Assembly: GCA_021234155.1 (NCBI GenBank)
Contig: JAJEKV010000011.1
Location: 498,001 to 562,000 of the forward strand
Reading direction: 5' to 3'
Source of the DNA: Isoetes taiwanensis
Lineage: Eukaryota > Streptophyta > Lycopodiopsida > Isoetales > Isoetaceae
Length of the DNA: 64,000 bases
Shown: piece after piece, positions 23,332 through 53,356 of the stretch
Position numbering within the stretch: the first letter of the stretch is position 1
How the letters are laid out: the number at the start of each line of letters is the position of its first letter
The notes under the pieces: generated by a model
Told to the model about the DNA's origin: nothing
The model's database searches: none
What the model saw: only the letters and a program-made list of their open reading frames with translations
Made by a program: the position numbers and the translations under genes

Positions 23332-23334
23332 GTG

Positions 23335-23795: not shown

Positions 23796-24110
23796 ATTCC
23801 TTAGATGCATTTCCCCTATCAGTGGGAAGCCATTGATCGCTAAATCATATACTTTCAGAAGGTGGTCACTATGGATGATGCTCATCTCCCTAACCTGGCT
23901 TATACTGTGGCAATTGGGTCGTGGCACCTCAAGGCCTGCTTTGGAAGGAAAAGCGAGCTCAATGGCTCGCTAGATGGAATGTCGCGGGGAGCATAGGTGC
24001 ATCTGATTTTGCAAACATAGGCATATCACCATAGCTTGAGGCAATACCTTAACGCTTGCTTCCTCAGCAAGATCTAGGATGCCATTGCCCTCGAACAGGT
24101 CAAGATAGCA
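23796..24110 (-). CDS. Upstream exon-like sequence of the H3-like A locus
   Basis: Minus-strand frame reading YLDLFEGNGILDLAEEASVK and, further on, SIIHSDHLLKVYDLAINGF. The second segment keeps it as one 141-codon frame (41100-40675). It ends exactly at the LTR. Across the retrotransposon, the right flank at 53337-53370 continues the same open frame, so element B probably landed in this exon. No family recognised. Confidence 0.4.
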
Positions 24111-24117
24111 CATTATC

Positions 24118-25795: not shown

Positions 25796-26626
25796 TTCTC
25801 CCCCCAGGACAATCTTTGTCCTCGACATTGCGCTAAGGTGACGAAACCTATCTATCACGCAAAACAACATAAGATCATACACTTAAGTTTAATTTAAACA
25901 ATCAACTTCCTATTAAGGTTAAATGTCAAAATTTAGGCTATATTTGTACTTATACAAAATTATATAGCCTTAACAAGGTTACTTCCTACAATAATTCAAA
26001 ACATTATTATAAGAGTTATTAGGGTTCATAATCTAAATTATGGTTCCCCCATCTTCTCGTAATGCGCCCCACCTCGAAGCTCCTCTCACTTGCCTGCACA
26101 TGGAGCACATTACGTTAGTTTAATTAATAAGTTTGTGGTTTTAGGGGACCACCCCCCTTACCATACCTTGCACTCGATCATGGCCCTTTCAGATTTGAGC
26201 TTAAGGACCATTTAAGATGATATTATCATCGCCCATGATCAAGTGCTACCTTGTACTCGGCTACCCGGTTCCGAGTACCCCTAGTGCATCATGCCCCAAG
26301 GGTTTTAAGCTAGGGAACGTCTCACGATCCCATCATCGCGCATGATCACTTTGACCTTCACCATGACCCCCCTATGGCCAGGTGTGTGACCCCCACATCG
26401 TGGCATAGAGAGCATCCGACCGATGTCCCATCATCGCGCACCATGCCTTTCCTCTCTCTTTCGCATGACCCTATTGGTCATGCGCACCTCTTGGTGCATG
26501 TTGGCCTAGAGAACGCCTTAAAGGCTTATCTCATCATCGCCCACATGTTCCAAGATTCTGGCATATGTATTCCACAAGCTAGAATACATCTGCCAGAATT
26601 AGAGGTTAACTAAGAAACATACTAAG

Positions 26627-28075: not shown

Positions 28076-29060
28076 GCCAATGAGTGGCGACGTCTTAACA
28101 TCTCCACGACTGCATGCTCTTCCTTGATTTGCTGTAGGTCACGATGCCGTCGAAGAGAATTGATGAAGAAATCATCGAAGGAATCTTCGAAGATGTCGTC
28201 CTCAAATGCATACAAGTTGGTGGAGCATTCCATAGACTCAAGGGCATCACTGTGAAGTGATAGTGCCCATACCAAGTTCTGAAGGAGTCTTATAATTATC
28301 TTCCCTTTTCATCCTTATTTGCTGATTGCCCGAGCTTAAGTCGATTTTGTAGAAGAATCCTGCTTTTTGGGGCTGATCCATTATGTCGTTGCTTGTTGAG
28401 CTGCCCATGGTTGATATACATCTTTAGACTTCCATCCTGGTCGAAAGGATCCCCAAGTTGATCAACTCCTACAACTGCTTCTTGAGCTCTGCTAGCTCGG
28501 AAGTGCTGATTCTATAAAGATCCTTGCTGATCGGCTCTGCCTCCAGTGCAAGAGTGATTTCGAACTCTATGCCTCTATAGAGCAAAAGCTCTCAAATTTC
28601 ACCTGGAGATATATCATGGGACTTCTTGATTAACTTAGAAATTGGCCGAGGCAACTGTTTCGAAGTAGCATCTTCCTTCTTACTCTTGTAGTCGGGGTCG
28701 ACAACTTGTAGCTTGTGTACGACCTCATTCCTCATGATGTACTTAAGTAATTGCTTTACTGACATGCGTTGCACGATTGGAATTACTTCCTTAACTTAAT
28801 TATAAGGTACTTGCTCTTTGGTGCTGGGATAAGTATCTCTTGCTTATGATAATCAATTATTGCCTTAGCCAGCTTTAATATTGCATGCTTATTATGAGGT
28901 CATAGTTGCCAATGTACATAAGTTGGTGCCGATGCTCTACTTTGCTTCGCTTAAGGTTGATGTCGAACTTGACTCTTGTTCCGTTGGTTTTGGCCTTGGC
29001 TTAATTACTGGCCTAGATTTAGACTTAAGAGTCTTGCTCTTAAAGATGTCCATCATCTAG
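28076..29060 (-). pseudogene. Element B RT and protease remnants, copy 1
   Basis: Fragments of RT (FTVMPLSLWNAP-like; the YxDD region reads LFDGIV, so the second catalytic Asp is lost) lie beside a deletion that removes most of RT and RNase H. The stretch 28774-28592 matches the protease-to-RT linker of element A (MQRMSVKQLLKYI). Pol of element B is therefore internally deleted as well as mutated. Confidence 0.7.
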
Positions 29061-30770
29061 GAGGTGCAAAATTACAAGTTAAAGAACTACTTACATAAAT
29101 CCTATGGCCACAAGTTAGTCGGCATGACATTACTTTTGGGCACACATAGAAAACTATATGATTAGATAATTATTCTTATTTTAGATCTAATCTATACTCT
29201 AGGATCTACCCTTTCTTAATTATTGCCCTCTTGAAATAGCCCCACCTTTGAGTTGATGCCATCTAAGAAGTTGGCCGGACTTATTAGATTGCTTCCCTTC
29301 ATTTGGTCGGATTATTCCTTATGCTGCGGAAGTACTCGTCATATACATGGTCGACGATTATCCTATTATTGAATCCTTCTTAGCGAGGTGATCAAGCTCA
29401 CGAAGAGGTTCCAATATATTGGATATCTGCCAGCAATGTATATAATTATTGTACTCCATACATTTTCTTCCCAATACTTGAAGCTTTGCTCCATTCTTGG
29501 GTCCATTTTCTAAAGGAGAAGACAAAAAAAATCTACTCGAAATTTCGTCCCCATCCCATCATGGATGTTATCACCCATAATTCTAAGAAACTCAACTATC
29601 TGATAGGTCCTCTAGCTTGCTTAAAGCTGGTGTAGTCATTAGTCGTTGGAGTAGCAAGGTGATGATCCATAATTTGTTGAAAAGAATCTGGTATTCTTGG
29701 AGTTGTTGTATGATCATTCGAGTGCTCTGCTTCCTTTCGTTGAACATATTCTGACTCTACTCGTCCTTAATGTATTATCCCTCTTAGTAAGTGGACTTGC
29801 TGATGTAGATAACATAATGCTCGGTGTCGCATCCTAGAACCTCGAAGGTAATGTTCTTCACATTCTAGAATCTTTCATGTCGCTCATCTGCCTTGGAGGT
29901 TACGAGATTTGAGGGTGATTCTTCTAACTCCTGAGTTGATACTGTTGTGTTGACCTTGTCGATTCTATTCTTCGTCCTGCTGGTTGCATGCTGCTGTTGT
30001 AAGGCTGAAGACAATGTCGAGTGCCTTACCACTTCTAACTGTGCAACTTCTCTTGCTGAGAGGAGTTTATTTGCATCCATGTGCAGGGACTATAATCTTG
30101 AGTAATCAGTTAGTAATGCTGGTATTTTGTCCCCCATGTTGCCTCTTCTTGATGGTACTTGACCTCCAATCTCTAAGGTGGAAGATCGAAGATCATCATG
30201 AGCCTGCGATGGTGCTGCTGAGGTTGATGTAGGCGCTCTGAAGTATTGGGGCTGATGAGGAAGAAGTTTGTTGCAGTCTCGCCATACTCGTATTCCTGAG
30301 CAGCCCACCCTTGCTGGCTTGTAATACCTATAATAATTTCTCTTCCGAGGAGATATGCTCAGTCTCATCCTTCAGAACTCTTGATATCATAAGTTGATGA
30401 AGTCATCTACTTGTTGGTGGCATAGCTGTGACATTAGTCGTCGATGTCGGGCCCTTCCTCGAGACAATATGGCGCTTGGAGAATATCCTTGACTAGGAGC
30501 TAATGTGGTCGATTTTTATAAGTGCCATGATGCCCATTGGCTGTTGCATAGCCCTCTTGGCAAGTCTTATGTCTAATCTTGATGTCGCAGTCGTCCTTCC
30601 GATAGGCTCCCCTTTCTTATTTGTGTTCGGCCTTCCCTGTACCCCATCTTGGCCTTTGATTTGCTGAAGTTTCCTCCATAAGTTTGCCTCTGCTTTCAAT
30701 TCGTTGATGTTGTCAAGTGGCTCCACTGTCGAGGCTCGAGGATCTGTAACGAAGGTTCTCCTGACCTATT
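29061..30770 (-). pseudogene. Element B gag-region remnant, copy 1
   Basis: Minus-strand pieces in several frames: 30726-30493 (NINELKAEANLWRKLQQIK, preceded by EPRQ-like sequence), 30368-30090 and 30080-29865. They occupy the position of gag between protease and 5' untranslated sequence. No zinc knuckle is intact. Assignment rests mainly on position. Confidence 0.5.
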
Positions 30771-31169
30771 TTACTGCCTTAAGCACAAGGTAACTAATAC
30801 TACCACAAGAACAATTACTTATATCTACTAACTCTACAAACCCTATTTTTATGCCTTTATCCACTCTCCCTCAATTGACCCACCTGGCACTTTACTAGGC
30901 ACTGAGAAATGTACTTATTTACTGTTATGGGGTGGTAGAAGGAGACTCATTCACTGGGTGTACTTGGTGTGCTAGATTGAATTACTTAGATAGAATTAAT
31001 TCCTAGACAATTATCTATGATACAAGGCATGGCTGAAGACACTTGATGATAGTGCACCTATAACGTGTGTTGGTGTATCGTACCAACGTGTGACAACAAT
31101 TTCTAAGGCCTTGGCAACTAGCCGGGTTTCTAAGGAAAAGGTTTAATTATACTACCTATAGAATATAGA

Positions 31170-32050
31170 ATAGAATAGAATATACATTAACGTCCCTCAG
31201 GCCGTGAGGCCCCCGGACTTGTGTAGCATCCTGCGAGCTCCCATAGGGTGCTGCCAGCAAACAGACGCATAGGTTTTATGTAGCCATCTAGCGGGCTTCA
31301 CTTGTTCTTTACATATTACCCGCATCATGCTTATAGCTGGCTTCTTGGCCATACACAAATGCATCGTTATAAACAGTTTTGAACTGTACTTTGTGGGCTT
31401 CTCTGATCCGCCTCATCCGTGCTTTTCAGATTAATAGCCCTCTCTCTTTGTGCACCCCCCGGTGTCTTATTATCATTTCTTTTATAGCTTTCGCTATGTC
31501 TGTGAGTGTCTCTTCTTTGTCCATCAGTGCTGGGAGTGGGAGATCCCACCTGACCTTGTTAAATTTGGACCTTATGTCGTTGTAAACCGGACACTCCTTT
31601 ACCATGTGCTCTTCGTCTTCTATTTTTCCTGAGTCACATACCCGGCATATTCGCTCTGCTCTATCTATTTTCCTCCATCTATCTTTCTCAATTCGGAGGT
31701 CGTGGCTTCCCATCCTGAATCTGGCCAGTGTTCCCCTGTTGCTTCTATTCAACATGGTGCTTTTGTATGTGATATGCCCTATCTGTTTCCCTGGATTGAA
31801 GGTTTCCAATAGCCACTGTTTTTTGGGCCCTGTGTGCCGTGCCATCCAGGCTCTCACTGCTCTGCCTGTCCATTCTTCGTCCCATCCGTCTGATTGTATA
31901 ATCTGACTTAGTTGCATCCCCATATTTGCTGTCCATTTCGCCAATTCGTTAAACCATCCTTTGCCCGCTGTTATATGCTGTTTTGCTGATTCATCTATCG
32001 CTAGTGACGCCAGTTTGTCCTCTTTCCCCGTGGTCGTTGTCCTTTATTAG
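31170..32050 (-). pseudogene. LINE C-terminal remnant, copy 1
   Basis: Minus-strand frame 31944-31426 ends with a zf-RVT-like finger typical of non-LTR retrotransposons (ERICRVCDSGKIEDEEHMVKE, CPVYNDIR). Its 3' end, near 31140-31180, is a run of TTCTA-like units as the tail. It is a 5'-truncated insertion inside element B, upstream of gag. Confidence 0.7.
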
Positions 32051-32168
32051 GTACCTAAGCGTCCTTTTCAGTGAGGCGACAAGACACTTAGCAAGATAAG
32101 AGCGACAACTAAAATTTTGTGATGAGTGCGGATGCCGTCTCTATCTAGCTTAAGGATCTTGGTTCTAA

Positions 32169-32318
32169 CTATAAGGCTTGGTCATATTGGCAAATGATGT
32201 CGGTGTAATAGGGAGTTGTAGTCAAAATGGCATGGAGATCAAAGAGATGATCAAATACATGGAAGGCTTGCTTTCGGCGGCCTCAATCGTACCATCTAAC
32301 AAAGCTTGATGGTGCCAT
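32169..32318 (-). CDS. Small ORF (~48 aa) with TATA box, copy 1
   Basis: Counterpart of the cleaner copy at 49111-49257, with small length differences. It has a TATA box (minus-strand CTATAAAAAGGG, 32427-32438) about 110 nt before the ATG. It lies downstream of the second H3-fold gene and its hairpins, as the 167-aa gene does after H3-like A. Confidence 0.35.
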
Positions 32319-33042
32319 TGAGCAGAGATAGCTATGAAAAATGGTTGCTGGGATTAAGCAAAGGGCTAGAAAATCGCCAAAGGAGCTGAGAGCAGTTATG
32401 ATGGGGAGAAAATGACAAATGATGGCCCTTTTTATAGACTAGGGGTACCTCGGGTTCCGTGCACAAAGGTTCCGATGGGGGCGGACTTGAATCTATAGCC
32501 ATGGTTGTCCAAATGAGCTACCATGAAGTGTAATTCTAAACAAAGCAAAGCAAGAAACACTACATGGCAGTTTGTTGGGTCAAAATTGGTCAATTTAGGC
32601 AAAATTGGGCGAAATCGGGTGGCGTCGCGAGAAATAGCTCTGCTACCGAGGGCTTGCATGTTTTTCAGCGATGCGACCCGATTTTCGGTCATTTCTATTC
32701 CTATGAAGGGTTTTTGGGAATTTAAACATCCTAACATGACTTTTCAAAGATGATTCTAACCTAACTAGCAACTTTTCTTACTCAAATTGACACCTATTTC
32801 TATCGAAAGCCAAATCGGGTGGCGTCGCGAAAATGGCTCAAGGCCGAGGGCGCGAGTGGTTTTCGCGATGCGACCGAAGTTGACTTTGACTTTGACTTTT
32901 TTTTTTTTTTGCAAACCGGGTTAGGCTGCGTTAGCGACGCGAGGCCTTTCTCGCGATCCAACCCAAGTTGACTTTGACTCCATATATATACATACAACCA
33001 TTACTTCTAGGAACATATATACATACAAGTTCAAAATCTTAT

Positions 33043-33400
33043 TCAAAGATTCCTAAATTTCATTTTTTTTTTTCTAATCCTCCAAGCTAGGTTCATGCTC
33101 TTGAGCATAATGGTCATCCTCTTGGCATGAATGGTGCGGATCTTGGCCTCCTCGGCTTTGGCCGCTTCTGGCGAGATCCCCGCCATCGTTGATGTGGTTC
33201 CGTAGTCGTGGCCCATCTTGAACTCCTCAATAGACCTTTGATGTAGGCACTTTCGAAGAGAGTTTCGGATCATCGACCGGTATGATGTTGGCAATGTCGA
33301 ATATCTTTGAAAGCAGCTCTCTTGTCTTTGGGGATTTGGCCCATGGCGGACCTTCTTCGGGGAATCGGGTCAAGGTGGTGGAGGCTTGATTTTCGACTGT
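33043..33400 (-). pseudogene. Second histone H3-fold gene (H3-like B), copy 1
   Basis: The C-terminal half is readable (MGHDYGTTSTMAG, then IRTIHAKRMTIMLKSMNLAW). The N-terminal part of the fold is shifted out of frame relative to the copy at 50011-50320, where it reads through. Differences fall at CTG/CAG positions, so the break may be a sequencing error. Confidence 0.65.
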
Positions 33401-34215
33401 GGTCGGCTGCCTTGTCACATCGTTTGGCGGAGATAAATCTTGTATGCTGCCTTCTTCTTCTCGTACTCCATATCTTGCTTGAGTTTTAAGTAGCTTCTCG
33501 CTGATGTTGCCCTCCTTGGACTGCATTGGATATGGTTGCCGGCGTAGGACCTCGTCTTTTCTTGACCTCCTCCTCCTCTTCTTCTTTAGCCTCTTGCTTC
33601 CCTCTCCACATTTGTTGTGGTCCTTCTTCCTCGGGCTCATCCTCCTCCAGTTCATCCAGTTGTGGTTCTCTGATAACCATGCTCTCCCTACGCCTAGCTT
33701 CACGCCTCTTTGTACGCTTTTCTTCTGCATTGGTTGCTCGCTCGCCTAGCTGATGTTCCTGCTGCTTGGGTTGCTTTCGTTATGCCGAGGTTGCTCCCTC
33801 TTGCTTCTTTGCTCCCCTATTCTTCCTGGTGTTGGGGTTGCTCCAGTTGCCGAGGTTGCTCTCGCTACTTGCTCTTCCCCTGCTCTCCCTGCGCCTTGCG
33901 ATCATTCGCCTGAAGTGCTAAGTCGTTGCTCCTCCTCGAAAGTGAAGCGATTAAATGCGAAGAGCTTGAGTGGCCAAGTTAGATCATCGGCCTGGGTCGC
34001 GGGGCCTCAAGAATTTGCTTGTCTCCGCCCACCGTGAGTGCTTCCACGTTCCAGTGCAAGCTGGAGCCTCCATCCTTCCTAGCTACTTGTTTGGTCCTCC
34101 CAACAACTTAGCTTCCTTGATGGTGGCCTCTTCGAGCGATCTTGCCTCTATCTTCGCGGCTCCTTTGGATCGATCTCGTCGGCTGTTCGTTCGGTGGACA
34201 CTCTTCACGGCAGCC
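33401..34215 (-). other. Charged N-terminal region of H3-like B, copy 1
   Basis: Minus-strand Glu/Lys/Gln/Arg-rich low-complexity coding-like sequence (EELEEDEPEEEGPQQ, repeats of EQPRQ-type) upstream of the H3 fold. Several frames are open because of composition. Compare the copy at 50321-51180. Confidence 0.4.
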
Positions 34216-34534
34216 TTCTGAGATTAGCTTCTAATTAAAACTTTACAAGGGTAAGGGAGAGGTTCAAGCTACCATTTGGAAACTTCTAGGGAGTAGAGGT
34301 GTTTCCATAGGTTTATTAGCTACTTTTTCTTAAGAGTAAATTTATTATAACCATGGGTTAATAATTAAGGTACTTCCCCTAACCACTTAACTATTTCTCA
34401 AAATTTCCTAATTCCTTTTTGGGCCAAGTAGTGGTCATTTCACGCCATTTCTTTCAAGCTTTCTTTTGAGCGATTTCTCGTTCAATTTTTTTGCTTGGAA
34501 GGTGCGGTTCATGAACAACTTGAGCTCAAATTTA

Positions 34535-34559
34535 CTGATTCTATAAAGATCCTTGCTGA
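34535..34559 (+). repeat. 25-bp templated filler at the duplication junction
   Basis: This stretch (CTGATTCTATAAA... TTGCTGA) is identical to 28506-28530, deep inside the segment. To its left, homology follows the end of the segment; to its right, the start. Overlaps of 2 bp (CT) and 5 bp (GCTGA) mark the two switches. Confidence 0.85.
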
Positions 34560-39899: not shown

Positions 39900-40330
39900 T
39901 ATTAACAAAATTGTTCATTATTTACAAAAAAGTTCAAGGGCGCTCCCTTGATGTGCCTAGCAAGATGCATATCCTGCCTCATGAGCGTGACCCTCTTCGC
40001 GTGCACGGTGCAGGCCGTTGAATCTTCAAAATGCTGCACTATTTTAGCCTCTGCCCTCCACAGACCACAAAGAACATTTCGTCCACACCGCGATGTTTGT
40101 GTTATACTCTTGTATAACTTCTTGGACCAAGCGTTGAAACGGTGCCCGGGGGATCAAGAGTCCGTAACTTCTCTGGAAGTGCCGGATTTCTTTGAGGGCT
40201 CTGTTCTCCAACTTCTTCCTACCGGCCCGCTTCTTTCCTGGTGCTCTGGGAGGCTTGGGCTTGTGCGGCGCGGCGCCGTGTGGTCCGCTTCTTGTCCGTG
40301 TCTGCCTTCAATCGTTCTCACCCTGTGCTC
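39900..40330 (-). pseudogene. H3-like A, copy 2
   Basis: Same gene as 22906-23331. The alpha-3 part and most of the fold are the same, but a few differences (about 40048-40090 and 40262-40300) break the frame in alpha-2 and in the N-terminal tail. The in-frame TAG before MVRT is retained. The extension (40331-40790) is identical or nearly so. Confidence 0.65.
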
Positions 40331-40674
40331 CTAGTAGTAGGCATTGTATGCCTCCCACTTCACCATGTAAGCGTTGTGCTCCTTGATCCTCTTCTGATAG
40401 ACCTTGACGGGGTCTATCACATATGCCTCCCGTTGTGGCCGCGGGGCTTTGACCCTATCCCACGTCGGGAATGGTGGGGGCTTCGGCGGCTGTCCAGGCT
40501 GCTGCTCATCAGGTGCCACCTGCTCCGGTACCTCCTTCTCCACGACTGGGGGCTTCGAAGAACTTGCCCCCTCAGTGTTGGGGACGTAGTCTTCGTCCGA
40601 GTCGTCGGTAGAAGGCGGGGTCTCGTCGCCTGATGGTTCGTTGATGCTGATACCTTTCCCTCGCTTACCAACCC

Positions 40675-41100
40675 CTACGACCCTTCTTTTGCCCGCCTTA
40701 ATGCCTTTGACCTTCTTCCTCTTCGGTTCGCCGGCTGTGGTTGGGTTGTCCTCTCGTTTATTTGTATAAAGAGTGATCCAATATAGTTATTCCTTAGATG
40801 CATTGCCCCTATCAGTGGGAAGCCATTGATCGCTAAATCATATACTTTCAGAAGGTGGTCACTATGGATGATGCTCATCTCCCTAACCTGGCTTATACTG
40901 TGGCAATTGGGTCGTGGCACCTCAAGGCCTGCTGGAAGGAAAAGCGAGCTCAATGGCTCGCTAGATGGAATGTGCAGGAGCATAGGTGCATACAGTTGCA
41001 AACATAGGCATATCACCATAGCTTGAGGCAATACCTTAACGCTTGCTTCCTCAGCAAGATCTAGGATGCCATTGCCCTCGAACAGGTCAAGATAGCACAT
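40675..41100 (-). CDS. Upstream exon of the H3-like A locus, copy 2
   Basis: 141-codon frame reading YLDLFEGNGILDLAEEASVK and SIIHSDHLLKVYDLAINGF. It is cut at its 5' end by the target site of element B (TTATC, 41100-41104). It may code for part of the same protein as the basic/acidic extension downstream, through a frame change or intron near 40780. No known domain. Confidence 0.4.
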   Translation of the reverse strand: MCYLDLFEGNGILDLAEEASVKVLPQAMVICLCLQLYAPMLLHIPSSEPLSSLFLPAGLEVPRPNCHSISQVREMSIIHSDHLLKVYDLAINGFPLIGAMHLRNNYIGSLFIQINERTTQPQPANRRGRRSKALRRAKEGS

Positions 41101-41104
41101 TATC

Positions 41105-42751
41105 TGTGACGCTCCCTGCTAAACATATGGCGCCCGACCGTACACTCGGCAGGAAATCCCCCGTCCGGCTCAACAACCGCACAGGCCCTCCGTCTATCCC
41201 GCACTCTGGAACCTCCGTAGTGCGGGAAGGGGACACGAAGGTGTCTTGCGCGCCCTTCCCCTATGGGCTCCTATCACAGCGGAAGCATAAACACGTCAGA
41301 ACTAGCAATACAATACAATATGCTACCTCGAAGGGTAGCTCAATCGCATATCCAGAGATACAAGGAACATAATCATATACCATAAAACATGAGGGCTCCT
41401 ACCCGTGGCTCCGACACATGAGGGAATCGACTGACTAGATAGGCCTCAAGATAGAGCAGACCGAGTCATAACAATGGCGGGGCTGGCATAAGACAATGGC
41501 TAGGGTTGACCACTCCATCCCGCCTCCCCGCATACTTTGGCATGGGCTAGACCAAGCCGCGGGCATGACTCTAACCTTCCTGACACGCAAATCCCATGGC
41601 ATCACCCATCTGGGACTACCCCAGTTGCATCTCCCCGGTCCCATGAGGTAGGAAGGGTTGCATCTCCCCTTCCCGGGTCTAGAGGCTCCACGGGCGGCTA
41701 GAGAATCGTGGCACACACGATTCGTAACCGACTCAACCCCCAAAACAAGAGCCAAGCCGACACTTGCAACTTTTGAGAGGCAGGGCAACACCATTGCCCC
41801 AGAGGTGTTTCGGACCCATGCTCGCCCACACCGGCGACCCCACCATAAGCCTAGCCCACTATGGGATCCCCGGCCCCCACTGGGCGGATCCTCCCTCCAT
41901 CTTGCCTCTAGCCCCGCTGTGTAGTGCTGAGTCACATCATAGCCTCCATAGCCCTAAGTGGGTTCCTATGCACAGCCGCATGTAATAGGAACTAAAGGAT
42001 CTACACTAGGAGCATACTACATATGGCCCTAGGTCTCTACCCCTTCCCAACACAAGAGGAGCAACATGATCAACCAATATCACATACATCACATCATGAT
42101 CAATATCAATATCATATGAACATCTTAACCTAAACATACATAGCTAACTAACAGCTTAGGGTTCCTTGATTAGGGTTCAAGATGTTCAACAAAGGATCTA
42201 GGGTGGCTCTACTCTAGACACTAATCACTAGCCCATCCGGCGCTAACTTCCTGATGAACTAACATGAACTCTACTCAACCTACCTCCTCCAGATCCGCTT
42301 CCTCCCATTCCCCGGGCGCCTCCATGCTCCTAGACGGGGTCCAAGGCCTGCTCCTCCCCACGATCATACACACCTTCCGTGGGCCGCTGCTCCGTGCTAG
42401 GCTATGTTTAATCCAAGTGTGCTAAAACGGAGTTTCCGCACGGGATGAGAGTTCAAAAAGCTAGGGTCGAAAAAGGATCTAGGGTTAGGGTTAGGGTTAG
42501 GGCTCATATAGGTGTGGGTCCACATGGGATGCCACGTGGCACCACTAAGATGAGGCCGTGTGGCGGTTGCCCACTAGGATAAGGCCATGTGGAAATGGGC
42601 CTTATCCTAAGGTTATCTAAGTTAAACAATTAACTTAGATGTGCACCCCTTGCCACTTATCCAAGGCATACAAGGCTACCTAGGTAGACTCGTATGGTGA
42701 CGGGTCCAGGAATATACGTATTTATGGCGTATATTCCCTTGGAACGTCACA
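41105..42751 (-). repeat. 3' LTR of element B
   Basis: 1647 bp from TGTGACGCTCCC to GGAACGTCACA. The first 200 bp differ from the other LTR (51684) by only a few C/T changes, pointing to a fairly recent insertion; later parts differ more, again at CTG/CAG. Confidence 0.92.
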
Positions 42752-42766
42752 TTCTCCCCCCCTTAG
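42752..42766 (-). promoter_or_regulatory. Polypurine tract of element B
   Basis: The minus strand reads CTAAGGGGGGGAGAA directly before the 3' LTR, as in element A. Confidence 0.8.
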
Positions 42767-43589
42767 GACAATGCTGTCCTCAGCATTGCGCTAAGGTGAC
42801 GAGCCTATCTATCCTGCAAAACAACATAAGATCATACACTTAAGTTTAATTTAAACAATCAACTTCCTATTAAGGTTAAATGTCAAAATTTAGGCTATAT
42901 TTGTACTTATACAAAATTATATAGCCTTAACAAGGTTACTTCCTACAATAATTCAAAACATTATTATAAGAGTTATTAGGGTTCATAATCTAAATTATGG
43001 TTCCCCCATCTTCTCGTAATGCGCCCCACCTCGAAGCTCCTCTCACTTGCCTGCACATGGAGCACATTACGTTAGTTTAATTAATAAGTTTGTGGTTTTA
43101 GGGGACCACCCCCCTTACCATACCTTGCACTCGATCATGGCCCTTTCAGATTTGAGCTTAAGGACCATTTAAGATGATATTATCATCGCCCATGATCAAG
43201 TGCTACCTTGTACTCGGCTACCCGGTTCCGAGTACCCCTAGTGCATCATGCCCCAAGGGTTTTAAGCTAGGGAACGTCTCACGATCCCATCATCGCAAGA
43301 TGATCACTTTGACCTTCACCATGACCCCCTATGGCCGTGTGTGTGACCCCACATCGCGGGCATAGAGAGCATCCCACCGATGTCCCATCATCGCGCACCA
43401 TGCCTTTCCTTTCTTTTCGCATGACCCTATTGGTCATGCGCATCTTCTTGGTGCATGTTGGCCTAGAGAACGCCTTTTAAAGGCTTATCTCATCATCGCC
43501 ATTACATGTTCCAAGATTCTCGCATATGTATTCCACAAGCTAGAATACATCCGCCGTAATTAGAGGTTAACTAAGAAACATACTAAGCT

Positions 43590-45050
43590 AACCTCCCCGG
43601 CGAAGTCGGGTCAACCAAGCCTGAGACGACTCACCCATCAAACTTCTTCATAAATTCTGGTATTGCTTCTCCAAATCCTCGCTTCAATACCCATGTCGCT
43701 TTTCCACTCGCAAGTGCTTCCACTTGACCAAATACCGGAGGAACCGAGACCTCCTAGTCTTCTTGAATGACTTATCAAGAAGTAACTCAGGCACAATTTC
43801 AACTTGCTCCTCGGTCATTTCCAACAAAGTTGGAGTATCCAAAACCTCATCAGGGTTAGGGTTGTGCCTTTTTAATAAACTCACATGGAAGACCTTAAGG
43901 TGGGCCAAGAGATCCAACTTGTAGGCTTGAGAGCCCACTCTTCTCCAAGATCGTGAACGGACCGGGCCCACCTAGGGGCGAGCTTCTTACAATTGCCGAT
44001 GCGAAGCTTCCCTTGCTTAACCTTTACTTGAGCCAACTTTATCTGCCACAACAACAACTCTGGAGGAGTTTTATGTCTATCTGCTTGACTCTTCAGATAT
44101 GCCCATGCTGATTGAAGATACTCTCACACTTCTACCAAAAGCTCCCGCATATATGCTGTTGTTGTTGAGAAACTTCCACCTTGGGCACTAGATTATGCCA
44201 AATGACTAGGGTCAAGCATTGATAACATCTTCGATGACTCTTGCTTCATATTATTGTACATAATTGATCAGGTGGATGTACTCGGTCCATTTGGATTACT
44301 TGTTCCAATCATAGTTTCTCAACGTGCTCTCCAAAATTGTGTTGGCGCGGTCCCTTTGCCGATTTGACTGCAAAAGATAAGCAAAACTCATCAACAAGTT
44401 GGTGCAGCTCGTGTTGAAGAAGTCTTGCTAACGTCGCTAAAGAACTTCGGATCTCTATTGGTGATGATCGACCTGTGCATTCCATGCAGCCTGAAAGAAC
44501 TCTTATGTAGACCACACGGCTAGATCCAAAGTGGCATGGCAAGAATGTGCCCTTTTGATAAACTATATACCACAACCATCAAGGCTTCAAAGCTTCTTGT
44601 TGTCCTTGGAAGGCCCGCTATGAAAACCATGCTGAAAACTTGCCACTTGGCGTCTGGCACCGCTGCTGGCTCCACTGACATTCTTGGCTATGTCTGATTA
44701 TCTGCTTCTTCATACCTGGCTAGACGTAGCTACTTCTAATCTTGAAGTAGGCCTTTATAAATTTTGCATGGCCGGAAATAGAGCTTATTATGCGTGTCCT
44801 GGAAAATTTTTCTTACTCCTTATGCTTTGAGTATAGTTGTTCTTTGATATTAAAGATTACCTTCCTTTTTAAAATATTTGAAGGTTTCTCTTTCTTAATC
44901 CGTTCTTGCATTCTTGTAAGGACTAGCCCATCATGTGCTTGAACTCCATGTTGGGGGAGATGGCTTCTTCTATCTTCTTGCCGAATTCGCTTGCCGAAGT
45001 GGAGATGGCATTGCAAATTGCTGCTTCAAAAGCTTGCCAATGAGTGGCGA
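43590..45050 (-). pseudogene. Element B integrase-chromodomain remnant, copy 2
   Basis: Counterpart of 26627-28075. The chromodomain is broken at its C-terminal side here (reading LVKWKHLRVEKRHGY). Integrase fragments are as in copy 1. Confidence 0.75.
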
Positions 45051-46025
45051 CGTCTTAACATCTCCACGACTGCATGCTCTTCCTTGATTTGCTGTAGGTC
45101 ACGATGCCGTCGAAGAGAATTGATGAAGAAATCATCGAAGGAATCTTCAAGATGTCGCCCTCAAATGCATACAAGTTGGTGGAGCATTCCATAGACTCAA
45201 GGGCATCACCGGCGGAAGTGATAGTGCCCATACCAAGTTCAAGGAGTCTTATAATTATCTTCCCTTTTCATCCTTATTTGCCGATTGCCCGAAGCTTAAG
45301 TCGATTTTGTAGAAGAATCCTCGCTTTTTGGGGCTGATCCATTATGTCGCTGCTTGTTGAGCTGCCCATGGTTGATATACATCTTTAGACTTCCATCCCG
45401 GTCGAAAGGATCCCCAAGTTGATCAACTCCTACAATCGCTTCTTGAGCTCGCTAGCTCCTGGAAGTGATTCTATAAAGATCCTTGCTGATCGGCTCGCCT
45501 CCAAAGCAAAGAGTGATTTCAACTCTATGCCTCTATAGAGCAAAAGCTCTCAAATTTCACCGAGATATATCATGGGACTTCTTGATTAACTTAGAAATTG
45601 GCCGAGGCAACCAAGCTTCAAGTAGCATCTTCCTTCTTACTCTTGTAGTCGGGGTCGACAACTTGTAGCTTATGTACGACCTCATTCCTCATGATGTACT
45701 TAAGTAATTGCTTTACTGACATGCGTTGCACGATTGGAATTACTTCCTTAACTTAATTATAAGGTACTTGCTCTTTGGTGCTGGGATAAGTATCTCTTGC
45801 TTATGATAATCAATTATTGCCTTAGCCAGCTTTAATATTGCATGCTTATTATGAGGTCATAGTTGCCAATGTACATAAGTTGGTGCTGATGCTCTACTTT
45901 GCTTCGCTTAAGGTTGATGTCGAACTTGACTCTTGTTCCGTTGGTTTTGGCCTTGGCTTAATTACTGGCCTAGATTTAGACTTAAGAGTCTTGCTCTTAA
46001 AGATGTCCGTCATCTAGGAGGTGCA
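45051..46025 (-). pseudogene. Element B RT and protease remnants, copy 2
   Basis: Counterpart of 28076-29060, with the same internal deletion of RT/RNase H. It also carries the sequence used as filler at the duplication junction (about 45469-45490). Confidence 0.65.
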
Positions 46026-47815
46026 AAATTACAAGTTAAAGAACTACTTACATAAATCCTATGGCCACAAGTTAGTCGGCATGACATTACTTTTGGGCAC
46101 ACATAGAAAACTATATGATTAGATAATTATTCTTATTTTAGATCTAATCTATACTCTAGGATCTACCCTTTCTTAATTATTGCCCTCTTGAAATAGCCCC
46201 ACCTTTGAGTTGATGCCATCTAAGAAGTTGGCCGGACTTATTAGATTGCTTCCCTTCATTTGGTCGGATTATTCCTTTATGTCATGGAAGTACTGCGTCA
46301 TATACATGGTCGACGATTATCCTATTATTGAATCCTTCTTAGCGAGGTGATCAAGCTCACGAAGAGGTTCCAATATATTGATATCTGCCAAAGAATGTAT
46401 ATAATTATTGTACTCCATACATTTTCTTCCCAATACTTGAAGCTTTGCTCCATTCTTGGGTCCATTTTCTAAAGGAGAAGACAAAAAAATCTACTTAAAT
46501 TTCGCCCCCATCCCATCATGGATGTTATCACCCATAATTCTAAGAAACTCAACTATCCGATAGGTACCTCTAGCTTGCTTAAAGCTGGTGTAGTCATTAG
46601 TCGCTGGAGTAGCAAGGCGATGATCCATAATTTGTTGAAAAGAATCGGTATTCTTGGAGTTGTTGTATGATCATTCGAAAGTGCTCTGCTTCCTTTCGTT
46701 GAACATATTCTCGACTCTACCGTCCCCAATGTATTATCCCTCTTAGTAAGTGGACTTGCTGATGTAGATAACATAATGCTCGGTGTCGCATCCTAGAACC
46801 TCGAAGGTAATGTTCTTCACATTCTAGAATCTTTCATGTCGCTCATCTGCCTTGGAGGTTACGAGATTTGAGGGTGATTCTTCTAACTCCCGAGTTGATA
46901 CTGCTGTGTTGACCTTTGTCGATTCTATTCTTCGTCTCCGCCTGTTGCATGTCGCTGTTGTAAGGTGAAGACAATGTCGAGTGCCTTACCACTTAACTCA
47001 GGCAACTTCTCTTGCCGAGAGGAGTTTATTTGCATCCATGTGCGTGGACTATAATCTTGAGTAATCAGTTAGTAATGCTGGTATTTTGTCCCCCATGTTG
47101 CCTCTTCTTGATGGTACTTGACCTCCAATCTCTAAGGTGGAAGATCAAGATCATCATGAGCCTGCGATGGTGCTGCTGAGGTTGATGTAGGCGCCCAAGT
47201 ATTGGGGCTGATGAGGAAGAAGTTTGTTGCGCCTCGCCATACTGTATTCTGAGCAGCCCACCCTTGCCGGCTTGTAATACCTATAATAATTTCTCTTCCG
47301 AGGAGATATGCTCGCCTCATCCTTCGAACTCTTGATATCATAAGTTGATGAAGTCATCTACTTGTTGGTGGCATAGTCGCGGACATTAGTCGCCGATGTC
47401 GGGCCCTTCCTCGAGACAATATGGCGCTTTGGAGAATATCCTTGACTAGGAGCTAATGTGGTCGATTTTTTATAAGTGCCATGATGCCCATTGGTCGTTG
47501 CATAGCCCTCTTGGCAAGTCTTATGTCTAATCTTGATGTCGCAGTCGTCCTTCCGATAGGCTCCCCTTTCTTATTTGTGTTCGGCCTTCCCTGTACCCCA
47601 TCTTGGCCTTTGATTTGCTGAAGTTTCCTCCATAAGTTTGCCTCTGCTTTCAATTCGTTGATGTTGTCAAGTGGCTCCACCGCCGAGGCTCGAGGATCCA
47701 GAAGGTTCTCCCGACCTATTTTATCGCCTTTAAGCACAAGGTAACTAATACTACCACAAGAACAATTACTTATATCTACTAACTCTACAAACCCTATTTT
47801 TATGCCTTTATCCAC
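46026..47815 (-). pseudogene. Element B gag-region remnant, copy 2
   Basis: Counterpart of 29061-30770. The frame 47815-47453 is longer than in copy 1 and joins a short N-terminal stretch to NINELKAEANLWRKLQQIK. No zinc knuckle seen. Confidence 0.5.
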
Positions 47816-48109
47816 TCTCCCTCAATTGACCCACCTGGCACTTTACTAGGCACTGAGAAATGTACTTATTTACTGTTATGGGGTGGTAGAAGGAGACTCA
47901 TTCACTGGGTGTACTTGGTGTGCTAGATTGAATTACTTAGATAGAATTAATTCCTAGACAATTATCTATGATACAAGGCATGGCTGAAGACACTTGATGA
48001 TAGTGCACCTATAACGTGTGTTGGTGTATCGTACCAACGTGTGACAACAATTTCTAAGGCCTTGGCAACTAGCCGGGTTTCTAAGGAAAAGGTTTAATTA
48101 TACTACCTA

Positions 48110-49000
48110 TAGAATATAGAATAGAATAGAATATACATTAACGTCCCTCAGGCCGTGAGGCCCCCGGACTTGTGTAGCATCCTCGCGAGCTCCCATAGGG
48201 TGTCTGCCAAAGAAACGACGATAGGTTTTATGTAGCCATCTAGCGGGCTTCACTTGTTCTTTACATATTACCCGCATCATGCTTATAGCTGGCTTCTTGG
48301 CCATACACAAATGCATCGTTATAAACAGTTTTGAATCAGACTTTGTGGGCTTCTCTTGATCCGCCTCATCCGTGCTTTTCGATTAATAGCCCTCTCTTTT
48401 GTGCACCCCCTGTCTTATTATCATTTCTTTTATAGCTTTCGCTATGTCCGTGGAGTGTCTCTTCTTTGTCCATCAAGTCTTTGGGAGTGGGAGATCCCAC
48501 CCGACCTTGTTAAATTTGGACCTTATGTCGTTGTAAACCCACACTCCTTTACCATGTGCTCTTCGCCTTCTATTTTTCCCGAGTCACATACTCGCATATT
48601 CGCCTGCTTCATCTATTTTCCTCCATCTATCTTTCTCAATTCGAGGTCGTGGCTTCCCATCCCGACCGCCGCTGTTCCCCCTGTTGCTTCTATTCAACAT
48701 GGTGCTTTTGTATGTGATATGCCCTATCTGCTTCCCCGGATTGAAGGTTTCCAATAGCCACCGCTTTTTGGGCCCCCGTGGTGCCGTTGCCATCCAAAGC
48801 TCTCACCGCTCGCTCGGCCCATTCTTCGTCCCATCCGTCTGATTGTATAATCTGACTTAGTTGCATCCCCATATTTGCTGTCCATTTCGCCAATTCGTTA
48901 AACCATCCTTTGCCCGCTGTTATATGCTGTTTTGCTGATTCATCTATCGCTAGTGACGCCAGTTTGTCCTCTTTCCCGTGGCTGTTGTCCTTTATTAGGT
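48110..49000 (-). pseudogene. LINE C-terminal remnant, copy 2
   Basis: Counterpart of 31170-32050. The finger region is disrupted. The TTCTA-like tail (about 48108-48138) is kept. Confidence 0.6.
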
Positions 49001-49110
49001 ACCTAACTGTCCTTTCGTAGACGACAAGACACTTAGCAAGATAAGAGCGACAACTAAGCTGTGATGAGTGCAGATGCCGTCTCTATCTAGCTTAAGGATC
49101 TTGGTTCTAA

Positions 49111-49257
49111 CTATAAGGCTTGGTCATATTGGCAAATGATGTCGGTGTAATAGGGAGTTGTAGTCAAAATGGCATGGAGATCAAAGAGATGATCAAATAC
49201 ATGGAAGGCTTGCTCGGCGGCCTCACTGTACCATCTAACAAAGCTTGATGGTGCCAT
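49111..49257 (-). CDS. Small ORF (48 aa) with TATA box, copy 2
   Basis: Begins MAPSSFVRWYSEAAEQAF and continues HVFDHLFDLHAIL. A TATA box (CTATAAAAAGGG on the minus strand, 49365-49376) stands ~110 nt before the ATG, with the hairpin pair upstream. Too short to classify. Confidence 0.4.
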   Translation of the reverse strand: MAPSSFVRWYSEAAEQAFHVFDHLFDLHAILTTTPYYTDIICQYDQAL

Positions 49258-49551
49258 TGAGCAGAGATAGCTATGAAAAATGGTTGCTGGGATTAAGCAA
49301 AGGGCTAGAAAATCGCCAAAGGAGCTGAGAGCAGTTATGATGGGGAGAAAATGACAAATGAGGGCCCTTTTTATAGACTAGGGGTACCTCGGGTTCCGTG
49401 CACAAAGGTTCCTGATGGGGCAGACTTCGAATCTATAGCCATGGTTGTCCAAATGAGCTACCATGAAGTGTAATTCTAAACAAAGCAAAGCAAGAAACAC
49501 TACATGGCAGTTTGTTGGGTCAAAATTGGTCAATTTAGGCAAAATTGGGCG

Positions 49552-49825
49552 AAATCGGGTGGCGTCGCGAGAAATAGCTCTGCGCTGAGGGCGCAGACAG
49601 GTTTTTCGCGATGCGACCCGGTTTCGGGTCATTTCTATTCCTATGAAGGGTTTTTGGGAATTTAAACATCCTAACATGACTTTTCAGCATGATTCTAACC
49701 TAACTAGCAACTTTTCTTACTCAAATTGGACACCTATTTCTATCAGAAAGCCGAAATCGGGTGGCGTCGCGAGAAATGGCTCTGCGTCGAGGGCGCAGAG
49801 TGGTTTTTCGCGATGCGACCCGAGT
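49552..49825. repeat. Pair of GC-rich hairpins downstream of H3-like B
   Basis: Two large imperfect inverted repeats start at 49552 and 49754 (202 bp apart) with arms such as GGGTGGCGTCGCGAGAAA / TTTTTCGCGATGCGACCC and inner arms GCTCTGCG / CGCAGAGT. A third, partly symmetric GC block follows at 49862-49918 after a T run. Sequences differ from the hairpins near 39.5 kb, but number, spacing and position relative to the H3-fold gene are the same. Confidence 0.8.
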
Positions 49826-50010
49826 TGACTTTGACTTTGACTTTTTTTTTTTTTTTTTTGCAAACCGGGTTAGGCCTGCGTTCGCGACGCAGAGGCCTTT
49901 CTCGCGATCCAACCCAAGTTGACTTTGACTCCATATATATACATACAACCATTACTTCTAGGAACATATATACATACAAGTTCAAAATCTTATTCAAAGA
50001 TTCCTAAATT

Positions 50011-50322
50011 TCATTTTTTTTTTCTAATCCTCCGCGCTAGGTTCATGCTCTTGAGCATAATGGTCATCCTCTTGGCATGAATGGTGCAGATCTTGGCCTC
50101 CTCGGCTTTGGCCGCTTCCTGGCGAGATCCCGCCATCGTTGATGTGGTTCCGTAGTCGTGGCCCATCTTGAACTCCTCAATAGACCTTTGATGTAGGCAC
50201 TCGAAAGAGAGTTTCTGGATCATCAGACTGGTATGATGTTGGCAATGTCGAATATGCTGAGCAGCTCTACTGTGCTGGGGATTTGGCCCATGGCGGACCT
50301 TCTTCGGGGGAATCGGGTCAAG
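50011..50322 (-). CDS. Divergent histone H3-fold protein (H3-like B), copy 2
   Basis: One frame reads through the whole fold: HIRHCQHHTSLMIQKLSFE aligns with the H3 alpha-N/alpha-1 (REIRRYQKSTELLIRKLPF), then RSIEEFKMGHDYG, RQEAAKAEEAKICTIH and AKRMTIMLKSMNLARRI. Alpha-2 is about nine residues shorter than in H3. The spacing of the AxxIRxxQxxTxLxIxKLxF pattern over the whole domain makes chance very unlikely. Much diverged from H3-like A. It sits inside element B between PBS and gag, on the element's own strand. Codon-level decay is modest, so it may have been functional recently. Confidence 0.75.
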   Translation of the reverse strand, partial: LDPIPPKKVRHGPNPQHSRAAQHIRHCQHHTSLMIQKLSFECLHQRSIEEFKMGHDYGTTSTMAGSRQEAAKAEEAKICTIHAKRMTIMLKSMNLARRIRKKK

Positions 50323-51180
50323 GTGGTGGAGGCTTGATTTTCGACTCTGGTCGGCTGCCTTGTCACATCGTTTGGCGGAGATAAATCTTGTATGCTGCCT
50401 TCTTCTTCTCGTACTCCATATCTTGCTTGAGTTTTAAGTAGCTTCTCGCTGATGTTGCCCTCCTTGGACTGCATTGGATATGGTTGCCGAGCGTAGGCCT
50501 CGTCTTTTCTTCGGCCTCCTCCTCCTCTTCTTCTTTAGCCTCTTGCTTCCCTCTCCTGTTGTTGTGGTCCTTCTTCCTCGGGCTCATCCTCCTCCAGTTC
50601 GTCCAGTTGTGGTTCTCTGATAACCATGCTCTCCCTACGCCTAGCTTCACGCCTCTTTGTACGCTTTTCTTCTGCATTGGTTGCTCGCTCGCCTAGCTGA
50701 TGTTCCTGCTGCTTGGGTTGCTCGTATTGCCGAGGTTGCTCCTACTGCTTGCTGCTCCCCTATTCTTCCTGGTGTTGGGGTTGCTCCTGTTGCCGAGGTT
50801 GCTCTCGCTACTTGCTCTTCCCCTGCTCTCCCTGCGCCTTGCGATCATTCGCCTGAAGTGCTAAGTCGTTGCTCCTCCTCGAGTGAAACGATTCGTCTGA
50901 AGAGCTTGAGTGGCCAAGTTCGTCATCTGGCCTAGGTCGCAGGGCCTCAAGAATTTGCTTGTCGCCGCCCACCGTGAGTGCTTCCACGTTCCAGTGCAAG
51001 CTGGAGCCTCCAACCTTCCTAGCTACTTGTTTGGTCCTCCCAACAACTTAGCTTCCTTGATGGTGGCCTCTTCGAGCGATCTTGCCTCTATCTTCGCGGC
51101 TCCTTTGGATCGATCTCGTCGGCTGTTCGTTCGGTGGACACTCTTACGGCAGCTTCGGAGATTAGCTTCTAATTCGCTTT
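50323..51180 (-). CDS. Charged N-terminal region of H3-like B
   Basis: Low-complexity coding-like sequence rich in Glu, Gln, Arg and Lys (EQPRQ repeats, KRTKRREARRRESMVIREP, ELEEDEPEEEG) followed by a helical piece (MEYEKKKAAYKIYLRQT), mirroring the layout of the H3-like A extension. Frame changes at 50.5-50.7 kb prevent one continuous reading. Start not identified. Confidence 0.4.
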
Positions 51181-51670
51181 ACAAGGGTAAGGGAGAGGTT
51201 CAAGCTACCATTTGGAAACTTCTAGGGAGTAGAGGTGTTTCCATAGGTTTATTAGCTACTTTTTCTTAAGAGTAAATTTATTATAACCATGGGTTAATAA
51301 TTAAGGTACTTCCCCTAACCACTTAACTATTTCTCAAAATTTCCTAATTCCTTTTTGGGCCAAGTAGTGGTCATTTCACGCCATTTCTTTCAAGCTTTCT
51401 TTTGAGCGATTTCTCGTTCAATTTTTTTGCTTGGAAGGTGCGGTTCATGAACAACTTGAGCTCAAATTTACTATAAGGTTTCTTTTGACTATATTATTTC
51501 TACCACTTAGACTATACTTAATCTAATTACGACCCTGCTAATGGGGGAAAAAAATTCTCCCATATTTCGCGGTTCAAGACTGGAATTCTCATTCCATTCC
51601 ATAGCCAGGCCAGTTAGTCTACCTATTCAGGGATATGGTCAGTGCTAGCTCTTGGTCAATCAAGAACATT

Positions 51671-51682
51671 GCTCTGATACCA
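51671..51682 (-). promoter_or_regulatory. Primer binding site, initiator Met tRNA
   Basis: The minus strand reads TGGTATCAGAGC one base inside the 5' LTR, matching the 3' end of plant initiator-Met tRNA. It primes minus-strand DNA synthesis of element B and fixes its orientation. Confidence 0.92.
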
Positions 51683-51683
51683 T

Positions 51684-53331
51684 TGTGACGCTCCCTGCTA
51701 AACATACGGCGCCCGACCGTACACTCGGCAGGAAATCCCCCGTCCGGCTCAACAACCGCACAGGCCCTCCGTCTATCCCGCACTCTGGAACCTCCGTAGT
51801 GTGGGAAGGGGACACGAAGGTGTCTTGCGCGCCCTTCCTCTATGGGCTCCTATCACAACGGAAGCATAAACACGTCAGAACTAGCAATACAATACAATAT
51901 GCTACCTCGAAGGGTAGCTCAATCGCATATCCAGAGATACAAGGAACATAATCATATACCATAAAACATGAGGGCTCCTACCCGTGGCTCCGACACATGA
52001 GGGAATCGGCTGACTAGATAGGCCTCAAGATAGAGCAGACCGAGTCATAACAATGGCGGGGCTGGCATAAGACAATGGCTAGGGTTGACCACTCCATCCG
52101 CCCCTCCTGTGCATACTTTGCAGATGGGCTAGACCAAGCTGTGGCATGACTCTAACCTTCCGGATACGCAATCCCATGGCATCACCCATCGGGACTACTC
52201 CAGGTTGCATCTCCCTGGTCCGATGAGGTAGGAAGGGTTGCATCTCCCCTTCCCGGGGTCTAGAGGCTCCACGGGCGGCTAGAGAATCGTGGCGACACAC
52301 GATTCGTAACCGACTGAACCCCCCAAAACAAGAGCCAAGCTAACACTTGCAACTCTTGAGAGGCAGGGCAACACCATTGCCCCAGGAGGTGTCGAACCCA
52401 TGCTCGGCCCACACGAAGTGACCGACCATAAGCCTAGCCCACTATGGGATCCCCCGAAGCCCCCACTCGGCGGGGATCCTCCCTCCATCTTGCCTCTAGC
52501 CCCGTTGTGTAGTGCTGAGTCACATCATAGCCTCCATAGCCCGGTGGGTTCCTATGCACAGGCCGCATGTAATAGGAACTAAAGGATCTACACTAGGAGC
52601 ATACTACATATGGCCCTAGGTCTCTACCCCCCTTCCCAACACAAGAGGAGCAACATGATCAACCAATATCACATACATCACATCATGATCAATATCAATA
52701 TCATATGAACATCTTAACCTAAACATACATAGCTAACTAACAGTTAGGGTTCCTTGATTAGGGTTCAAGATGTTCAACAAAGGATCTAGGGTGGCTCTAC
52801 TCTAGACACGAATCACTAGCCCATCTGAAGTGCTAACTTCCGGATGAACTAACATGAACTCTACTCAACCTACCTCCTCCAGATCCGCTTCCTCCCATTC
52901 CTGGCGTCTCCATGCTCCTAGACGTGGTCCGAAGGCCTGCTCCCTCTACGATCATACACACCTTCCAGGGGCTGCTGCTCCAGGCTAGGCTATGCCGAAC
53001 GGTGCTCGAAACGGAGTTTCGGGCACGTGGATGAGAGTTCAGGTGCTAGGTCAGGAAAAAGGATCTAGGGTTAGGGTTAGGGCTCATATAGGTGTGGGTC
53101 CACATGGGATGCCACGTGGCACCACTAAGATGAGGCCGTGTGGCGGTTGCCCACTAGGATAAGGCCATGTGGAAATGGGCCTTATCCTAAGGTTATCTAA
53201 GTTAAACAATTAACTTAGATGTGCACCCCTTGCCACTTATCCAAGGCATACAAGGCTACCTAGGTAGACTCGTATGGTGACGGGTCCAGGAATATACGTA
53301 TTTATGGCGTATATTCCCTTGGAACGTCACA
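51684..53331 (-). repeat. 5' LTR of element B
   Basis: 1648 bp with TGTGACG...CGTCACA ends, followed by TTATC (53332-53336). It holds the presumed promoter of the element. Confidence 0.92.
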
Positions 53332-53356
53332 TTATCAGTGCCATAAAAATCCCACA

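Follow-up and report, generated by a model that had tools for sequence, protein, structure and literature searches.

Chromodomain-bearing LTR retrotransposons of Isoetes taiwanensis appear to maintain a gene for a histone H3 variant

What is a histone H3-like frame doing inside an LTR retrotransposon of Isoetes taiwanensis: is it a passenger or a gene of the element, and what might such a gene do? Chromoviruses read histone marks by means of a chromodomain, and we know of no retroelement that encodes a histone itself. The question arose in a window of 64 kb (the whole stretch of DNA that was analysed), in which an earlier note had placed an H3-fold gene between the primer binding site (PBS) and gag of a chromovirus and had explained it as a capture of cargo that might influence chromatin at insertion sites, or as a nested insertion.

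The H3-like frame is real. The frame 50433-50011 on the minus strand (H3-B, 50011..50433) was matched by phmmer to histone H3 in PDB chains (5.4e-11) and by profile search to Pfam PF00125 Histone (5e-9, above the cut-off), and a tblastn search of the window with canonical H3 recovered it at 50376-50014 (1e-13). The alignment had been thought to span the whole H3 fold; the match to H3 holds, but helix 2 is short by approximately 6 residues and many core residues are changed. C-terminally the frame ends in ...CTIHAKRMTIMLKSMNLARRIRKKK. A relic of the H3 N-terminal tail, GRTKQVARK (51006..51044, minus strand; tblastn E 4.6, weak alone), stands 630 bp upstream of the fold in a different frame, and 19 of the 20 B loci carry RTKQVARK upstream. 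The relic of an insert lies between tail and fold (50377..51005, minus strand), with broken frames and short tandem repeats, and is collinear in other B loci.

H3-B sits within a complete LTR element on the minus strand (element B, 41105..53331). The 5′ LTR (51684-53331) and the 3′ LTR (41105-42751) share 93.8% identity and have the termini TGTGACG...CGTCACA, and the target site duplication GATAA (TTATC on the plus strand) is present on both sides (53332..53336 and 41100..41104), as the note had read it. The PBS TGGTATCAGAGC (51671..51682, minus strand), which we take to be of the initiator-tRNA-Met type, immediately follows the 5′ LTR; the same motif was found after the 5′ LTR in three further copies described below (c1045, c1071, and the copy on C1034). 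Degenerate pol, running from protease/RT to integrase-chromodomain, was located at 43660..46028 on the same strand by tblastn to the long gag-pol element of the window, which bears out a chromovirus-type element with H3 on its own strand. The position of H3-B downstream of the PBS stands as well, but the gag remnant reported at 47.8 kb does not: the frame 47821-47453 was without Pfam match and a related gag gave no tblastn match in element B.

The interior downstream of H3-B holds several other features. Two GC-rich hairpins follow it (49746..49829 and 49545..49627, minus strand; RNA fold z −5.6 and −7.05), both belonging to the repeated unit D16, and their type-A counterparts (22535-22612 and 22718-22802) were weaker (z −1.8 and −2.1). 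A pair of GC-rich hairpins approximately 200 bases apart was thus observed directly after the H3 gene in both B and A, and may mark an RNA signal in the gap that separates H3 from the following ORF. By eye the frame 49377-49111 resembles orf2 of type-A elements, and tblastn of type-A orf2 against element B gave no match. Homology of element B to other B loci stops at 49017 (9 of the best 12 of 69 hits). The stretch 48107-49082 (minus strand) looks by eye like the inserted 3′ end of a LINE, and its frame 49082-48690 had no Pfam match.

Canonical H3 matched four loci in the window by tblastn, all on the minus strand, two of type B and two of another kind, type A. The pairing stems from a tandem duplication of 17 kb (unit 1, 17556..34536; unit 2, 34554-51472; 95% identical); the repeated segment takes in the H3-A gene together with one LTR of the B family and most of the interior of element B. 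Unit 1 thus carries a second H3-B copy (33064..33282, minus strand; tail relic 34104-34066) and a third B-family LTR (24136..25800, minus strand). Since element B is flanked at 41104-40300 by upstream sequence of an H3-A ORF (other A loci match 40300-40765), its insertion next to the H3-A gene, on the upstream side, probably preceded the 17-kb duplication. The long open gag-pol element of the window (5967-11258, minus strand) has a chromodomain (PF00385, 4.3e-10, in frame 7700-5967); upstream of it no H3 match was found, orf3-like remnants lie at 11593-12117, and its 5′ part seems to have been replaced. Other observations in the window were a 468-aa frame at 17191-18597 (plus strand) with a weak DUF7869 match (8e-5, below the cut-off), copied at 34546-35570 along with the 17-kb unit; a frame at 55568-57577 (minus strand) that by eye has the look of a phospholipase D (HHQKSVILD motif); and a tandem duplication of approximately 0.88 kb at 58071-59824 (92% identical).

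Whether H3-B is peculiar to this one insertion was addressed by searching the genome (1,658,258,908 bases, 1110 contigs). With the B frame, at least 151 matches were scored from 6248 first-look candidates and 20 loci were fetched, the copy in the window included. In 20 of 20 the DNA was collinear from the H3-B frame to past the LTR edge: ten gave a single alignment, eight were split in two with an overlap at the repeat tract, one had an internal deletion, and one a short gap. As these loci were chosen through the H3 frame, they establish one shared junction and not the presence of the block in every B element. With the block joined to the same LTR edge, at the same internal position, in all 20 loci, a nested insert does not fit and a one-off capture of cargo is not the explanation either; elements of types A and C also have H3 there. 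The suggestion of the note that the gene might influence chromatin is plausible.

Comparison of dN/dS among copies, a check the note had proposed, divided the families, with near-neutral change in B and constraint in A and C. For H3-B, dN was 0.083, dS 0.122, and dN/dS 0.68 (15 of the 20 loci; 70 codons; bootstrap 0.36-1.41 from 60 resamples); codon positions 1/2/3 differed by 0.057/0.083/0.074, and 6 of the 15 copies had internal stops. On these rates H3-B is a decayed, near-neutral relic of an H3 module of the element, and its ratio is an internal control for the selection estimates in A and C.

Type A is represented in the window by a gene at 22907..23793 (minus strand), with an open fold (23337-22907), an upstream frame (23793-23341), and one TAG between them; it matched Pfam Histone at 4.3e-27 and canonical H3 by tblastn at 23313-22948. 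The second copy (39905..40786, minus strand; tblastn 40292-39944) has its frame broken within the fold. A genome query with the A fold gave 10361 first-look candidates, the best 150 of which were scored (81-100% identical) and 30 loci fetched. One unbroken ORF of 398-422 aa was present in 8 of the 30, starting with MARTKQT[A/T]RK and ending in the H3 fold. The plan of type A is thus the H3 tail MARTKQTARK, then a long insert, then the fold, and it did not have the length (approximately 135 aa) and contiguous tail of a core H3. A tail-like match was found in the flank of 18 of the 30 loci and was in frame with the fold in 11. After K9 the sequence is mostly P-R-R rather than S-T-G-G, the remaining tail is also replaced, and a basic linker, KPPPPKPKPPRAPGKKR, precedes the fold. 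Stretches that could yield peptides specific to types A and C include FPTWDRVKAPRPQR and the N-terminal part of type C.

The type-A fold is identical to a host H3 (L028) at 52 of 90 positions. Across 28 of the 30 loci its dN/dS was 0.024 (dN 0.012, dS 0.504, bootstrap 0.011-0.041), a ratio whose dN is lowered because the loci were selected by protein likeness, and differences at the three codon positions were 0.036/0.011/0.218. In the eight full ORFs dN/dS was 0.086 in the tail, 0.21 and 0.11 in the insert, and 0.044 in the fold region. A dS of approximately 0.5 with a dN of 0.012 would be hard to get by selecting among neutral copies, and at the level of sequence these values demonstrate strong purifying selection on the type-A fold.

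The full-length type-A model was mostly unstructured, with few helices (pLDDT 51). AlphaFold2 modelling of the C-terminal 150 aa of one type-A ORF gave helices at 55-71, 79-92, 101-130, and 136-145 (mean pLDDT 68), four helices that follow the order of H3. In Foldseek the best 50 of 490 PDB matches to this model were all nucleosome or histone entries (top E 5.6e-7, TM 0.45 of query). The H3 fold is accordingly assigned in types A and C by Pfam, in A also by AlphaFold2 and Foldseek, and in type B by sequence match alone. Among 28 hand-picked H3 core and contact sites, type A retains 17 (R52, K56, P66, R69, R72, R83, C110, H113-T118, D123, L126, R128, and I130) and departs at 11, including R49, R63, L65, F84, Q85, and K122; type C retains 27.

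Type C emerged from a genome query with ordinary H3, in which the best 150 of 8760 candidates were scored: host H3 of the canonical kind accounted for 15 loci (90-91% identical to the query), and these were followed by 135 H3-like matches at 69-84%. Five of the 135 were fetched, with open folds in four (L074, L075, L077, and L078) and a broken one in L076. In L075 and L078 an ORF of approximately 410 aa joins an unrelated N-terminal part (MAITK...) to H3 from approximately residue 37; the canonical H3 tail is absent, and the protein starts with MAITK or MANTK instead. Type C matched Pfam Histone at 3.3e-41. Five folds, including that of the element c952, are identical to host H3 at 76-77 of 90 positions (84-86%), with dN 0.043, dS 0.87, and a ratio of approximately 0.05; pairs of the N-terminal part (three copies) gave dN 0.053-0.099 and dS 0.36-0.70. 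These values show strong purifying selection on the type-C fold too, with the same lowering of dN through the choice of loci by protein likeness.

In a tree of the fold (49 rows, 90 columns), types A, B, and C each fell on one side of a branch, C was placed next to a host H3, a weakly supported position (81/70), 26 of the 43 inner branches were left open, and A and B carry a warning of long-branch joining. H3 may have been gained by one capture or by several. A centromeric origin was considered and rejected. The hallmark of CENH3 is a longer loop 1 with a Trp; in an alignment with P0090, a Taxus protein interpreted as CENH3, type A had neither an extra loop-1 residue nor a Trp there, and type C reads LRFQTF. 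Type A shares with CENH3 and host H3 variants the H3 fold and a diverged, sometimes extended tail, but those are host genes, whereas type A is element-borne, 398-422 aa long, and without the CENH3 loop-1 residue.

Whole elements were then annotated, and those of types A and C have the gene order LTR-PBS-H3-(orf2/3)-gag-pol. In c1045 (C1045, L055+L056) the 5′ LTR extends to 1493 and is followed by the PBS at 1495, the H3 ORF at 2125-3399, orf2, gag at 5970-7111, pol to 10633, and the 3′ LTR at 11511-13140; the LTR flanks, ATGCC and ACGCC, differ by one mismatch, and the same stretch also contains a paralogous site that is uninterrupted. In c1071 (L051+L052) the 5′ LTR is followed by the PBS at 1485, the H3 ORF at 2146-3399, gag at 4965-6088, pol to 9621, and a 3′ LTR from 10505; beyond this the end is rearranged, with a second, partial LTR behind it. 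On C1034 a type-C copy has its LTR end at 1829, the PBS at 1831, the H3 ORF at 2493-3815, orf2 at 3973-5031, orf3 at 5621-6112, gag, and the start of pol; the fetched DNA stops before the 3′ end. A second type-C element is nested on the opposite strand in c952, with the same gene order and flanking repeats 89% alike, and no PBS motif was found in it.

In all four of these annotated copies no long ORF comes between the PBS and H3, and gag lies 1.6-2.8 kb further on. Gag and pol (PR-RT-RH-IN) are on the strand of the H3 gene in c1045, c1071, and nested c952, and on C1034 as far as fetched. The integrase chromodomain region is homologous by tblastn in c1045, c1071, and nested c952, with a remnant in B; by Pfam a chromodomain was scored only in the long gag-pol element of the window, which is without H3. 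By their gene content and homologies the host elements are chromodomain-bearing Ty3/Gypsy LTR retrotransposons. The PBS motif was present in the 1.5-kb flanks of 14 of 50 A and B loci, of 0 of 15 host H3 loci, and of 0 of 5 type-C loci, many A flanks being too short to reach it.

Exact motif counts extended these results to the whole genome. The fold motif C-x-[IMV]-H-A-K-[RS]-[IMV]-T had 3644 matches, the tail motif M-A-[RS]-T-K-Q-T-[AT]-[RS]-K 1071, and a pol motif 1816, with 0 for each reversed control; canonical host H3 loci number at least 15. On contigs with complete motif lists, the fold motif lay less than 2 kb downstream of 14 of 30 tail places, two pairs being 330 bases apart, as in host H3, and the other 12 being 1037-1265 bases apart. 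Many element H3 copies must be dead, as only 4 of the 12 long-spaced (element) pairs were in frame. Pairs out of frame were off by 2 in seven cases and by 1 in one. A programmed frameshift between tail and fold was rejected: by eye the break positions differ among five loci, and the breaks were read as decay or assembly indels.

Since the A and B loci were fetched by H3 frames, the share of elements without the gene cannot be read from them, and 48 pol places were therefore sampled independently of H3 likeness. On the strand of pol and no more than 10 kb upstream, the fold motif was present at 15 of the 48, at a distance of 5.6-5.8 kb in 10 of these 15, compared with 0 of 48 downstream and 2 of 48 on the other strand. 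Fold or tail motif was found upstream at 17 of 48 (tail motifs were counted upstream only). At the 31 places with no exact H3 motif upstream, the gene may have diverged, been lost, or never been present.

The nearest precedent found is H3L of a hAT DNA transposon in Pyrenophora tritici-repentis (Manning et al. 2013, PMC3538342). That study describes 26 genes whose H3-like product is diverged in both tail and fold and is neither H3 nor CENH3 (PMC3538342). Both cases present a mobile element with an amplified H3-like ORF, but the fungal element is a DNA transposon with TIRs and near-identical recent copies (PMC3538342), whereas the Isoetes elements are plant LTR retrotransposons with thousands of motif copies, divergent families, an authentic tail in type A, and measured purifying selection. 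A Pyrenophora-type hAT element was rejected for Isoetes, where LTRs, PBS, and gag-pol are present and not hAT transposase and TIRs.

Additional ORFs (aORFs) of plant LTR retrotransposons, such as Grande gene23, Retand, and env-like frames, lie mostly between pol and the 3′ LTR according to two reviews (PMC7264820, PMC11963269). Relative to the aORFs described there, an extra ORF retained across many copies of a family is shared, but the Isoetes ORF sits 5′ of gag and encodes H3. The word "histone" is absent from the main text of both reviews and of a rotifer LTR study (PMC5408684). Tcn1/Galahad-type chromoviruses of Selaginella and mosses are likewise chromodomain-bearing Gypsy elements of non-seed plants, and the passages describing them make no mention of a histone gene (PMC3350952). 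The open-licence PMC literature that was searched yielded no retroelement-borne H3. Transposon-borne histone genes and extra ORFs are thus known, and what is new, as far as found, is that a lineage of retrotransposons maintains an H3 gene.

Relatives were also sought in protein databases; in one of these searches ordinary H3 gene models swamped the best 120 of 5450 matches. Of 19 long H3 proteins examined, 16 (P0122-P0126, P0128, P0129, P0131, P0133, P0135, P0136, P0139-P0141, P0144, and P0150; 298-711 aa, five of which end short) resemble type A in having a MARTKQTA[R/W]K start, a long insert, and a C-terminal H3 fold, and P0127, P0137, and P0152 have other plans. The long H3 proteins include two clusters of 77 and 121 members, sizes that suggest amplified genes. 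Profile comparison of the inserts of A, C, and the ENA long H3s found no homology; because the long H3s share a plan and their inserts are unrelated, the tail-insert-fold plan may have had more than one origin. P0123 and P0140 were also run against viral contigs and gave no matches.

Taken as a gene, the H3 frame of these elements is almost certainly real and selected. We consider it probable, with reservations, that a chromodomain Ty3/Gypsy lineage holds H3 as a standing module and makes an H3 variant that acts on chromatin. As the first long ORF after the PBS, H3 should be readily produced from element RNA. The variant would then associate with the H4 of the host and be built into nucleosomes or H3-H4 complexes, a step that we rate somewhat above even; such pairing is conceivable because helix 2, loop 2, and helix 3 retain many of their residues (almost all in C, part of them in A). 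Conservation of the fold alongside divergence of the exterior agrees with a protein in contact with H4 and chromatin. The type-A insert or the N-terminal part of type C, plus the H3 tail where present, would alter how the host marks or reads the chromatin of the element, and the outcome would be blunted silencing, integration steered by the chromodomain of the element itself, or both. That escape from silencing or targeting is the purpose we put forward more tentatively, at rather less than an even chance.

The type-A tail fits contact with writers or readers of K4/K9, and it invites another reading, in which the protein is a soluble decoy that soaks up such writers and readers or histone chaperones and thereby eases silencing. 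Such mimicry would suit the retention of MARTKQT[A/T]RK while the rest of the tail is replaced, and the tail dN/dS of 0.086. It is nevertheless unlikely: constraint is strongest on the fold (0.024), and type C has a near-host fold without the tail, neither of which a pure tail decoy needs. The fold and basic stretches could instead bind or compact element RNA or cDNA, either within the virus-like particle or within the pre-integration complex. The place of H3 in the four annotated copies, as the leading long ORF downstream of the PBS and 5′ of gag, and the basic linker ahead of the fold would speak for such a role. Histone dimers, however, normally act on double-stranded DNA with H4, and the conserved tail of type A would go unexplained; we regard a particle role as improbable.

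The supposition that a host H3 was transduced and amplified with the element as functionless cargo describes family B well, with its near-neutral change and broken frames, and there it stands; for A and C it is contradicted by strong purifying selection over a dS of 0.5-0.9 and by the presence of H3 at the same position in three distinct families, so that as a general account it has very little chance of being right. Transduction as a single event was rejected on the 3644 and 1071 motif copies and on the ratios of 0.024 and approximately 0.05 in A and C. A separate H3 repeat nested inside one element, or an assembly artefact, is hardly credible even though the window has a 17-kb tandem duplication, c952 holds a nested element, and H3-less elements could escape a search by H3 frame, for all 20 B loci are collinear past the LTR edge and A and C elements on other contigs have the same order.

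In a doubtful extension of this reading, the long H3 variant with its authentic K4/K9 tail would be a substrate or ligand for chromatin readers, the integrase chromodomain of the element included. Nucleosomes containing element H3 would then be marked as places for transcription, for protection from silencing, or for integration, and the element would own both a mark-bearing histone and a reader. In such plants H3 antibodies, H3 gene counts, and proteomics may detect element proteins. The findings suggest that these elements use a self-made chromosome protein, and they bear on the origin of histone variants and on whether silencing can be evaded or steered with a home-made H3. With thousands of element H3 motifs set against at least 15 canonical loci, they raise the question of whether selfish elements enter the nucleosome pool of their host.
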